NCBI GenBank assembly: GCA_002284855.1
Contig: CP015603.1
Coordinates: forward strand, 496,001 to 560,000
Length of the DNA: 64,000 nt
DNA from: Actinobacteria bacterium IMCC25003
GTDB lineage: Bacteria; Actinomycetota; Actinomycetes; Nanopelagicales; Nanopelagicaceae
Direction of reading: 5' to 3'
Positions 55,532 through 59,899 of the stretch are shown piece after piece; position 1 is the stretch's first letter, and each line of letters opens with the position of its first letter. The notes below the pieces were generated by a model. That model was given only the letters and a program-made list of their open reading frames with translations, did not search any database and had not been told where the DNA came from. The position numbers were made by a program, and so were the translations under genes.

Positions 55532-56713
55532 ATGAAGACGCCTCCACTAGTCACGCCAGGCCCAGCGCTTACCGTTGATGAAGTGCGCCGATATAGCCGC
55601 CACTTGATCATCCCTGATGTAGCAATGGCAGGCCAGCAGCGCTTGATGAATGCAGAGGTTCTCTGCGTCGGAGCAGGTGGATTGGGTTCACCAGCACTGA
55701 TGTATCTCGCAGCTGCCGGAGTCGGAACTCTCGGAATAGTTGAATTCGATACCGTTGATGAATCTAATCTTCAGCGCCAGATTATTCATGGCCAATCAGA
55801 TATTGGTAAGAGCAAGGCGCTGAGCGCTAAGGAAAAGATTGCCGAAATCAATCCTTATGTGAATGTTGTCCTCCACGAGACGCGACTCGATAACTCAAAT
55901 GTCATGGAGATTTTTTCTCAGTACGACATCATCGTTGATGGCACAGATAACTTTGCTACGCGTTATCTCGTTAATGATGCCTGCGTTCTCTTAAAGAAGC
56001 CTTATGTCTGGGGTTCTATCTATCGCTTCGATGGACAGGCAAGCGTCTTCTGGGCCGAGTACGGTCCGTGCTACCGCTGCCTCTATCCAGAGCCACCACC
56101 TCCCGGAATGGTTCCAAGTTGTGCTGAAGGCGGTGTGCTCGGAGTTCTCTGCGCGACTATCGGTTCAATTCAGACAACGGAAGCCATCAAAGTTCTCACT
56201 GGCGTGGGCGAACCGCTGATTGGTTCACTCATGGTCTACGACGCACTTGAAATGACATTCCGTAAAATCAAAGTGCGCAAAGATCCTAACTGCCCACTCT
56301 GTAGCGATAAGGCAACGCAAACTGCGCTCCTACCTGACTACGAAGCATTCTGTGGAACGCTCTCTGATGCAGCGCAAGAAGCAAGCACTGGTTCGACCAT
56401 TACCGTTCAAGAGCTCAAGTCAAAGATTGATAATAAAGATGACATCTACCTCATCGATGTTCGTGAACCAAGTGAGTATGAGATCGTCAATATTCCAACT
56501 GCACACTTGATTCCTAAGCAAGGATTTATTGATGGCAGCGTGCTTGCATCGCTTCCACAAGATAAGCCCATTGTTCTTCACTGCAAGAGTGGAGTTCGTT
56601 CAGCCGAATGTCTTGCGATTCTCAAGAGCGCAGGCTTTGCCGATGCATCACATGTATCAGGTGGCGTCATTGCATGGGCGAAACAAATCGATACAACTCT
56701 TCCGGTTTACTAA
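55532..56713 (+). CDS. moeZ: MoeZ-type adenylyltransferase/sulfurtransferase (MoeB plus rhodanese)
   Basis: 393 aa from ATG 55532; the upstream open frame overlaps tetR. The N-terminal MoeB/ThiF domain has [17 protein letters not shown] (ATP loop, ~47) and zinc cysteines in CYRCLYP and CPLC. The C-terminal rhodanese domain (from ~290) has nucleophile Cys351 in HCKSGVRS. It activates and thiolates ubiquitin-like sulfur carriers (molybdopterin, thiamine or CysO type). Its stop overlaps mshB by one base, linking two thiol-metabolism genes. Confidence 0.93.
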
Positions 56714-57582
56714 TGCGCACGAGCTATAAGGGTTATCGCATGCTGCTTGTGCATGCCCATCCTGATGACGAGACCATCAATAATGGAGCCACGATGGCGC
56801 TGTATGCAGCCCTCGGAGCAGATGTCACGCTCGTTACATGTACTCGTGGCGAAGAAGGCGAAGTGTTGGTTAAAGATTTAGCTCATCTGGCCGCACATGA
56901 AACAGATTCACTTGGAGACCATCGAGTCGAAGAGTTGGCAGTAGCCATGAAAGCTCTGGGAATTTCTGATCACCGCTTCCTCGGTGAAGGTCACACTAAG
57001 TATCGCGATAGCGGAATGATGGGAACCGAACCCAATAATCGCCCCGATACTTTCTGGAAAGCTGATTTTGATGAAGCCACAAGCCATCTGGTGCGCGTCA
57101 TAGATGAAGTGAAGCCACATGTCTTGATTACCTACGATGAATTCGGCGGTTACGGCCATCCAGATCATATTCAGGCACATCGAGTAGCGATGAACGCTGC
57201 CGAGAAATCAACCTGGAATATTGAGAAGATTTATTGGAACGTCATGCCTAAGTCGGTCATTCAAGAAGGAATTGATGCGATGAAGAAGATGGGCTCTGAT
57301 TTCTTCGGAGCAGAAAAGGCGGAAGATCTTCCCTTTGCTAAAGATGATTCATTTGTTCACGCAATGGTCGATGGCAATGCTTATGTCGAGAAGAAGATGG
57401 ATGCAATGCGTGCGCATGCAACTCAGATTGAGGTCGATGGACCTTTCTTCGCGCTCTCCAATAATTTAGGTCTGCAAGTGTGGGGGCATGAGTACTACAC
57501 CCTTGTAAAGGGCACGAAACACGAGCCTTTGGATGCAAAGGGTTACGAAACTGATCTCTTTGCGGGGATTGAACTTTCGTAA
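56713..57582 (+). CDS. mshB: GlcNAc-inositol deacetylase of mycothiol synthesis
   Basis: 289 aa LmbE-type zinc deacetylase. Zinc site HAHPDDE (His16, Asp19) and the third ligand in [12 protein letters not shown] (~155); [10 protein letters not shown] (~46) is typical of MshB. The start at ATG 56713 overlaps the moeZ stop by one base. MshB is preferred to the paralogous Mca amidase from these motifs, but Mca-like activity is not excluded. It implies that the cell uses mycothiol. Confidence 0.88.
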
Positions 57583-57894: not shown

Positions 57895-59472
57895 TTACTT
57901 CCAACTCCAGCTCTGACCATCGGCGCCATCTTTGATTTCAAGGCCGGCATCAGATAACTGATCTCGCAATGCATCGCTCAGCGCCCAATTCTTCTCTGCG
58001 CGAGCTGTAATGCGCGCATCGAGTAGCGCTTGAAGATCTGCACTCACTTCTTTACTTTCCACGCCGCGATCGAGATCAAGCCCCAGCACCTGATCTGCAA
58101 AGAGGAAGATGGCACGTTTATCGAGAGCTCCGATACTGGAATCCTTTTCGATGGCACGAATTCGCTGCATCGCTCGTGGTGTATCAAGATCATTGGTGAG
58201 TGCATCACTGAGTTCTTGATCAAATTTCAACTCTGTACCGCTACCTGCATCGGAGAGCAATTGTCTCCAGCGTTTGAGAGTTGAATGTGCTGCCTCAAGA
58301 GAGGCCCAACTGAGATCCATTTGTGAGCGATAGCGATTCTCAAGCAGTGCAAAGCGAAGTGAAAGTGGGTCTAATCCTCGATCGATGATGTCCTGCAGCA
58401 AGACAACATTGCCAGCGCTCTTCGACATCTTGCGGCCTTCAAAGAGAAGGTGTTCGCCATGTACCCATGAATCAACGGTTTCATCACCTGTCAGCGAATT
58501 AGATTGTGCTCGTTCATTTTCATGGTGAGGAAAGCGGAGATCAATTCCACCAATGTGGAGATCCACATGCCCATCGAGAAGTTCTATCGACATAGCGCTG
58601 CATTCAATATGCCAACCAGGAAATCCTGCACCCCACGGTGAATCCCAAATCATTTGAGTGCGCGCACCTGCTAATTTCCAGAGCGCCCAGTCCGCGTGAA
58701 ATCTCTTGCCACCTTCATCGGTGAATTCATAACGATGACCTGGTTTAAGCGCTTCGAGTTTATTTCCGCTGAGCGCTCCATATGAAGGAAATGATGTGGC
58801 ATCAAAGTAGACAGAGCCATCAGTACCGACATAGGCATGCTTGAGTTCAATCAATTTCTCAATCGACTCAATCATCTGCGCCATCTTCTCCGAGGCCCGT
58901 GGATAGGAATCTGCTCCTTGAATATTGAGTCGAGCTAAATCAGTATGAAAACGCGCCTCAAAAATTCGGGCAATCTCAAAGGGATCAATCTTTGTCTTCT
59001 CTGACTCTGCGAGCATCTTGTCTTCATCGGAAAAATCATCTGCCATATGTCCCACATCGGTGATGTTCTGGACCAAGGTGACATCGAGTCCGGTCAGCTG
59101 CAGAGTGCGGGAGATGAGGTCTGAAAGTAGAAAGGTACGCAGATTCCCAACATGTGCATCTCGGTAGACAGTTGGACCGCAGCAGTAGATTCGAACCGCC
59201 CCATCTCGGCTAGAGATTGTCTTCAGAGATCTCGACATCGTGTCGTACATCGAGAGTGATCCGCTCGAGGTATCGCGCCGGTTAAAAACTGGGATGACTC
59301 GGAAAGCGACAGCATCATCAGGGTTGAAAGCGACTGTTTCACCACGTCGATTAATCAAGGTTGTCTCACTCTGTAGAACGCCGACGACATCTCGAAAGCT
59401 GCCATCACTGTCGCGCAGGCGAATCGTCGCTCGCTTGCCGAGCGCCTGCGCTATCTGAGTGCGCAGATTCAT
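57895..59472 (-). CDS. cysS: cysteinyl-tRNA synthetase with extra N-terminal domain
   Basis: 525 aa from ATG 59472, about 75 residues longer than usual. The ordinary enzyme begins at MYDTMSRSLKT (ATG 59250, 451 aa) and contains CCGPTVY with AHVGN (HIGH), zinc ligands in WHIECSAMS and HHENERAQ, and RKMSKSAGN. The C-terminal anticodon part (ARAEKNWALSDALRDQL) marks CysS rather than the shorter MshC. The extension reads like a small beta-barrel (RATIRLRDSDGSFRDVVGVL, then TLINRRGETVAF). It is in frame with no stop, so the fusion is probably real, though an internal start at 59250 is possible. Confidence 0.88.
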   Translation of the reverse strand: MNLRTQIAQALGKRATIRLRDSDGSFRDVVGVLQSETTLINRRGETVAFNPDDAVAFRVIPVFNRRDTSSGSLSMYDTMSRSLKTISSRDGAVRIYCCGPTVYRDAHVGNLRTFLLSDLISRTLQLTGLDVTLVQNITDVGHMADDFSDEDKMLAESEKTKIDPFEIARIFEARFHTDLARLNIQGADSYPRASEKMAQMIESIEKLIELKHAYVGTDGSVYFDATSFPSYGALSGNKLEALKPGHRYEFTDEGGKRFHADWALWKLAGARTQMIWDSPWGAGFPGWHIECSAMSIELLDGHVDLHIGGIDLRFPHHENERAQSNSLTGDETVDSWVHGEHLLFEGRKMSKSAGNVVLLQDIIDRGLDPLSLRFALLENRYRSQMDLSWASLEAAHSTLKRWRQLLSDAGSGTELKFDQELSDALTNDLDTPRAMQRIRAIEKDSSIGALDKRAIFLFADQVLGLDLDRGVESKEVSADLQALLDARITARAEKNWALSDALRDQLSDAGLEIKDGADGQSWSWK

Positions 59473-59504: not shown

Positions 59505-59510
59505 ACCCTA
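59505..59510 (-). promoter_or_regulatory. -10 element of the cysS transcript
   Basis: Minus strand TAGGGT, 6 nt before the leader-ORF ATG at 59498 and 32 nt before the cysS ATG. Confidence 0.4.
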
Positions 59511-59578: not shown

Positions 59579-59899
59579 GTGACATATGTAATTGCTGAAC
59601 CGTGCGTGGATGTAAAAGATAAGTCTTGCCGCGAAGAGTGCCCAGTCGACTGCATTTACGACGGCACCCGCATGCTCTACATCCAGCCTGACGAATGTGT
59701 CGATTGCGGAGCTTGCGAACCAGTATGCCCAGTTGAAGCCATCTACTACGAGGATGATGTTCCTGGCCAGTGGCAAAATTATAAGAAGATCAATACAGAA
59801 TTCTTTATCGAACTCGGTTCACCTGGGGGAGCATCAAAGGTCGGGGAGACAAATACCGACCATGCAGATGTCACTGCTCTTGCGCCAAAAACTTCCTGA
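59579..59899 (+). CDS. fdxA: 7Fe ferredoxin (3Fe-4S plus 4Fe-4S)
   Basis: 106 aa electron carrier. The first cluster motif is CVDVKDKSCREECP (C-x7-C-x3-C-P) and the second is CVDCGACEPVCP (C-x2-C-x2-C-x3-C-P), the FdxA/FdxC arrangement. GTG start with GGAGGA 6 nt upstream. The C-terminal tail overlaps the dapC start by 32 nt; an fdx-dapC pair is also known to me from mycobacteria. Confidence 0.95.
   Translation: MTYVIAEPCVDVKDKSCREECPVDCIYDGTRMLYIQPDECVDCGACEPVCPVEAIYYEDDVPGQWQNYKKINTEFFIELGSPGGASKVGETNTDHADVTALAPKTS

Follow-up and report, generated by a model that had tools for sequence, protein, structure and literature searches.

Read on the reverse strand of the window (the whole 64,000-nucleotide stretch analyzed, from Actinobacteria bacterium IMCC25003), the gene cysS2 encodes a second cysteinyl-tRNA synthetase (CysRS2) that carries a small β-barrel of the SH3 type at its N terminus. 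In relatives the same barrel is found as a separate mini-protein, and phylogenies indicate that SH3-CysRS fusions arose independently about 5 to 6 times. With a probability of roughly 0.5, we favor the explanation that a normally separate barrel mini-protein has been joined to the second CysRS, that CysRS2 charges tRNA-Cys, and that the barrel adds a contact of its own.

The ORF and its translation place cysS2 at 57895..59472 (reverse strand); it opens with an ATG at 59472, codes for 525 amino acids over 59472..57898, and ends with a stop codon that finishes at 57895. The protein consists of a barrel of ∼60 residues, a linker of ∼13 residues, and a complete CysRS. Pfam PF24551, the AlphaFold model, and a low dN/dS define the barrel, which is of the SH3_Rv0428c type (residues 1 to 60; 59293..59472, reverse strand). 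The linker (residues 61 to 73, PVFNRRDTSSGSL; 59254..59292, reverse strand) is marked by low pLDDT and by a conserved FNRRD motif, which is kept in 11/11 fused loci of g1. The catalytic part spans about residues 74 to 397 (58282..59253, reverse strand), with PF01406 at residues 89 to 396, and the C-terminal CysS_C anticodon-binding domain occupies about residues 475 to 525 (57898..58050, reverse strand), with PF23493 at residues 475 to 522 (32.9 bits versus a cut-off of 23). The CysRS profile TIGR00435 is matched over its full length by residues 73 to 523 (381.8 bits versus a cut-off of 340), the catalytic motifs HVGN (107 to 110) and KMSKS (348 to 352) and the Zn-ligand residues (C98, C291, H317, and a Glu of HHENE) are all present, and in PDB alignments the closest solved folds to this part are CysRSs. 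A CysS_C-like module (24 bits versus a cut-off of 23) also begins a 296-amino-acid glycosyltransferase-like protein of L004 (1534-2424; G000:C1 about 429037-429927), which is directly preceded by two MaoC/HadAB-type dehydratase-like ORFs.

On the divergent side, cysS2 is flanked by the ferredoxin gene fdxA (59579..59899, forward strand; Pfam Fer4), which is the divergent neighbor in other families as well and marks the locus throughout the class. On the convergent side lies an mshB-type PIG-L deacetylase gene (56731..57582, forward strand; PF02585); its listed ORF is 56608-57582, and similarity puts the probable start near 56731. The nearest relative of the protein, 98% identical, comes from a freshwater MAG (L269). 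The named relatives are actinobacterial MAGs, many of them from lakes or reservoirs by isolate name, one labeled Candidatus Planktophila.

The initial annotation had noted a likeness between the N-terminal part and the β-barrel in front of some actinobacterial GNAT acetyltransferases, and the profiles bear this out: PF24551 is the N-terminal domain of Rv0428c/Cg3035-type acetyltransferases. The match covers residues 10 to 58; with the N terminus alone it reaches an E value of 7.5e-5 and 23.2 bits (curated cut-off 27), fused orthologues exceed the cut-off (34.8 bits in G125, 33.4 in G137), and lone barrel copies in other families score 37 to 54 bits. The barrel also matches the start of NF049894, the profile of Cg3035-type N-acetylglutamate synthase; a profile search of the protein for a GNAT catalytic domain gave no match. 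In Corynebacterium glutamicum, a library clone with about 800 of the 1008 bp of cg3035 (the 3′ part) complemented Escherichia coli argA (PMC3827942). From the lengths, the missing part would be the barrel, and the complementation is consistent with a barrel separable from GNAT.

AlphaFold predicts that the barrel has an N-terminal helix followed by five strands, with a core pLDDT of 91 to 98 for residues 1 to 60, in line with the SH3-like fold that had been suspected. In the full-length model, pLDDT is low at residues 61 to 70, within the linker, which is consistent with a flexible tether. Foldseek searches with the barrel returned Lsm/Hfq-type proteins, designed SH3 barrels, and the N-terminal domain of GatDE chain A, all with weak E values. 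The top hit was 4a54 (Edc3/Scd6 Lsm-type; E value, 0.017), Hfq followed at 0.079, and GatDE chain A (1zq1) aligned with a probability of 1.00 and an rmsd of 1.8 over 58 columns. VIA-align Z scores did not exceed 7.6 overall and reached 7.0 for Hfq. Because the best E value is only 0.017 and Z stays below 8, the fold is to be taken as generic: the predicted structure fits an SH3/Sm-like small barrel and names no function. A PDB sequence search with the barrel gave chance matches only.

Across about 200 related genomes, the barrel at the fdxA-divergent locus occurs in four states: SH3-GNAT, a lone ORF next to cysS2, the SH3-CysRS fusion, and a lone ORF in genomes with neither GNAT nor CysRS2. 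Since these arrangements include the lone ORF, we regard the barrel as a self-standing small protein that has repeatedly been joined to its neighbors. Among the 111 CysRS2 loci of the family to which our genome belongs, 31 carry the same fusion, 38 have a lone barrel just upstream, 32 have SH3-GNAT upstream, and 10 lack a barrel. The SH3-GNAT genes (about 330 amino acids; PF24551 plus PF24553) lie upstream of cysS2 in g1, g4, g7, g9, g11, and g16. These proteins score 143 bits against the NF049894 cut-off of 280, so their acetyltransferase substrate is only putative; Cg3035-like genes beside a ferredoxin gene have been noted earlier (PMC3827942). The lone barrel ORFs abutting cysS2 are 64 to 100 amino acids long and end a few residues past the barrel, and the stop codon often overlaps the start of cysS2 (ATGA or GTGA). 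Nine of the 10 barrel-less loci belong to genus g17, where cysS2 faces fdxA directly, and CysRS2 without a detectable barrel is also found in f34. A lone barrel lies just upstream of cysS2 in f5, f22, and f35, whereas an EamA-type transporter gene stands between the two in f14, as does a transglutaminase-like gene, among others, in f11. In f11 (L197, L198), the gene after the lone barrel is of a transglutaminase-like/TPR (SirB1-like) type.

Lone barrels without GNAT or CysRS2 are found in eight g1 genomes (G103, G127, G133, G162, G185, G189, G191, and G194), in two genomes of g8 (G143 and G149), and at fdxA in distant families. Within the own family they are under purifying selection, with dN/dS mostly 0.07 to 0.27. 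The initial annotation had treated the domain as an invention of the synthetase; this does not fit a barrel that stands alone in genomes without CysRS2 or GNAT, nor relatives whose CysRS2 has no barrel. Retention of the barrel solely on account of CysRS2 is ruled out by the lone-barrel genomes, which indicate that it has a role outside CysRS2. The lone mini-proteins of the SH3_Rv0428c type that are encoded opposite fdxA, about 65 to 100 amino acids in length (L205, L206, and L216 in other families; L349-L356), apparently make up an unnamed small-protein family.

In a tree of 130 CysRS2 proteins, the fused state requires 6 changes, 5 of them forced by well-supported branches, and a careful tree of 59 proteins gives the same counts (6 to 7 changes in bootstrap), although such counts do not separate fusion from fission or gain from loss. 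Splitting of a gene with both parts left intact is, we infer, less likely than fusion. With the 59-protein tree, a single clade of all fusions is rejected at a p-AU of 1.9e-5 and a single clade of the g8 fusions more weakly, at a p-AU of 0.016. Linker lengths also differ between origins, ranging from 18 to 72 nt. Judged from these trees, the fusion arose about 5 to 6 times, and this repetition speaks for a genuine and probably useful extra domain.

Alternatively, the fusion could be mutationally easy and the joined state functionally neutral: overlapping codirectional genes would have lost a stop codon in a streamlining genome, leaving barrel and synthetase to act independently on one chain. 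The overlap of the lone barrel ORF with cysS2 by a few bases speaks for such an accident, as do G039 and G030/G174, in which barrel and CysRS2 share one frame with stops alone between them, and the retention of each partner without the other. Yet the number of origins (5 to 6), the persistence of most of them in several species, and linkers that have stayed open suggest that the joined state is well tolerated at the least and may be favored. We consider neutrality possible but on the unlikely side.

The initial annotation implied the normal CysRS of the cell, and here it needs correction: the genome (1.35 Mb, one contig) carries three members of the CysRS family, and cysS2 is an additional, second CysRS. 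The canonical cysS (C1:126381-127775; TIGR00435, 453 bits) lies among ispDF-type, carD-type, and RNA methyltransferase-type genes, named by reading their ORFs. A genuine mshC is found at 879724 (TIGR03447, 543.7 bits), separate from the cysS2 locus; the cysS2 protein scores 232.7 bits against the TIGR03447 cut-off of 485.1, and an MshC identity was rejected. In the tree, CysRS2 groups in a single clade with its counterparts from other families of the class, and canonical actinobacterial cysS falls outside it. Of 297 genomes drawn from the whole class, 55 contain CysRS2 (E value ≤1e-85), with 52 to 58% identity outside the own family, and more distant relatives (43 to 50% identity) occur elsewhere in the phylum. 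All 131 CysRS2 proteins share the Zn-ligand residues, HVGN, and the two Lys of KMSKS, and the unchanging Zn ligands rule out a zinc-independent spare enzyme; the first S of KMSKS is A in 32 of the 131. The anticodon domain is kept in 127 of 131, and R491, D500, R503, and D515 are invariant in all 127. Four examined loci of a g8 subclade (L125, L135, L138, and L139) encode barrel-CysRS2 fusions without this C-terminal domain, two of the four with KMAKS in place of KMSKS, and their genomes still have canonical cysS. Among 40 tRNA matches in our genome, a single tRNA-Cys(GCA) and no second tRNA-Cys were found, no tRNA-Sec scored above the cut-off, and no SelC*-like tRNA was found. A limited literature search returned no report of this second CysRS or of an SH3-CysRS fusion.

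The contact made by the barrel could be with tRNA itself, if the barrel were an appendix that helps CysRS2 to capture or select tRNA-Cys. The best structural matches would agree with this, since they include Hfq, Lsm/Sm proteins, and a tRNA-dependent amidotransferase (the GatDE domain), and the fused g8 subclade has lost the anticodon-binding domain and retains the barrel. However, those matches are of a generic fold, the net charge of the barrel averages only about +1, and the barrel also exists without CysRS2. We therefore hold a tRNA-binding role of this kind to be unlikely. By analogy with MshC or CysRS*, CysRS2 might have no part in translation and instead ligate cysteine to a different acceptor or an unusual tRNA, which the barrel would bind. 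Canonical cysS and mshC are present in the same genome, and the anticodon domain lost in the g8 subclade is also absent from CysRS* (PMC9437257). Against this stand the C-terminal domain with its four invariant residues in 127/131 CysRS2 proteins, the one ordinary tRNA-Cys, and the lack of tRNA-Sec above the cut-off and of any tRNA gene near cysS2 in the truncated clade. This proposal is distinctly doubtful. As a long shot, the lone barrel might be an Sm/Hfq-like RNA-binding mini-protein of Actinomycetes that repeatedly captures enzymes (the acetyltransferase and CysRS2) and that in one clade has replaced the anticodon domain as the tRNA-contacting part.

Finally, translation starting at 59250, with the upstream frame as mere leader DNA, is scarcely credible: an in-frame ATG does occur at the equivalent position in our genome and in G016, G193, and G157, but the upstream codons have low dN/dS, close relatives do not keep the Met, and the upstream part is a known domain with a confidently predicted fold. 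Of the ∼74 residues that had been counted before MYDTMSRS, exactly 74 are present, with M75 at nucleotide 59250. M75 is Ile in G051 and G180 and is absent in G145, G091, G073, G198, and G196; because it is not conserved, initiation at 59250 is excluded as a general rule. At the position equivalent to 59472, the start codon in most relatives is ATG or GTG; an in-frame TTG lies at 59505, 11 codons upstream of the cysS2 ATG. Between fused relatives, dN/dS of the barrel is about 0.06 to 0.26, single values being noisy over 51 codons. By these substitution patterns, the whole cysS2 frame is conserved at the protein level, and the extra N-terminal domain holds up as annotated. As a separate observation, most close pairs show a smaller dS for the barrel than for the CysRS part (for example, 0.15 versus 0.58; the pairs include L027/L066, L140/L142, and L110/L113), which hints that the DNA or RNA near the divergent fdxA promoter is itself under constraint.

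In the favored explanation two partners are joined: an SH3/Sm-like barrel, which within this bacterial family is an independent, selected mini-protein encoded opposite fdxA, and a Zn-type second CysRS whose lineage is not that of canonical cysS. In the likely path, loss of the GNAT part would have reduced an SH3-GNAT gene to a short barrel ORF that overlaps cysS2 (often by ATGA), and a lost stop or changed frame would then have produced the barrel-CysRS2 fusion. We infer GNAT loss rather than gain as the direction; lone barrels occur in distant families too. CysRS2 would still charge the single tRNA-Cys with cysteine through ordinary chemistry, and by way of the flexible linker the barrel may bring it an RNA or protein contact of its own. 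That contact must matter outside CysRS2, since genomes without CysRS2 retain the barrel, and the tether is dispensable, because CysRS2 persists without a detectable barrel in g17 and f34. Adjacency of barrel and cysS2 alone could be inherited, as the ancestral fdxA locus is home to both genes. Our computational analysis found no ligand or partner of the barrel. Control of cysteine supply through the domain, with a link to mycothiol, had also been proposed and is unsupported: the link rests only on the neighboring mshB, which reflects the ancestral order of the region, and mshC lies elsewhere. Around cysS2, Rfam gave no match of note to a T-box or riboswitch, and a promoter and terminator scan did no better than chance.

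Synthetases with added domains are already known; the same small domain joined independently to the same spare synthetase about 5 to 6 times in one bacterial family amounts to a natural experiment. Attention is drawn to a selected protein of 65 residues that has been overlooked: it is encoded at the fdxA locus in many Actinomycetes and until now has had a name only as the N-terminal end of an acetyltransferase. A second CysRS lineage also emerges as widespread, in genomes that are otherwise losing genes.

Among known systems, bacterial class I CysRS (TIGR00435; PF01406 plus PF23493) has the complete catalytic and anticodon-binding parts, and all of its motif residues, in common with CysRS2; the cysS2 protein differs in its extra N-terminal barrel, in being the second copy of the genome, and in belonging to a separate clade. 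MshC, the cysteine:GlcN-Ins ligase, is a CysRS relative of the same fold encoded in the same genome. Rv0428c/Cg3035-type GNAT proteins (NF049894; PF24551 plus PF24553) begin with the same kind of barrel, whereas in the cysS2 protein the GNAT part is missing and CysRS2 follows the barrel instead. Hfq, Lsm/Sm, and other SH3-like small barrels have the N-terminal helix and five-stranded barrel predicted here, but no sequence relation was detected, and a Z score below 8 may reflect the common arrangement alone. CysRS* of Desulfobacterales (Mukai et al. 2017, reviewed in PMC9437257) is likewise a second CysRS beside a normal one; it lacks the anticodon domain, like the g8 subclade and unlike the copy in the window, and it is coupled to SelC*, of which our genome yielded no counterpart.
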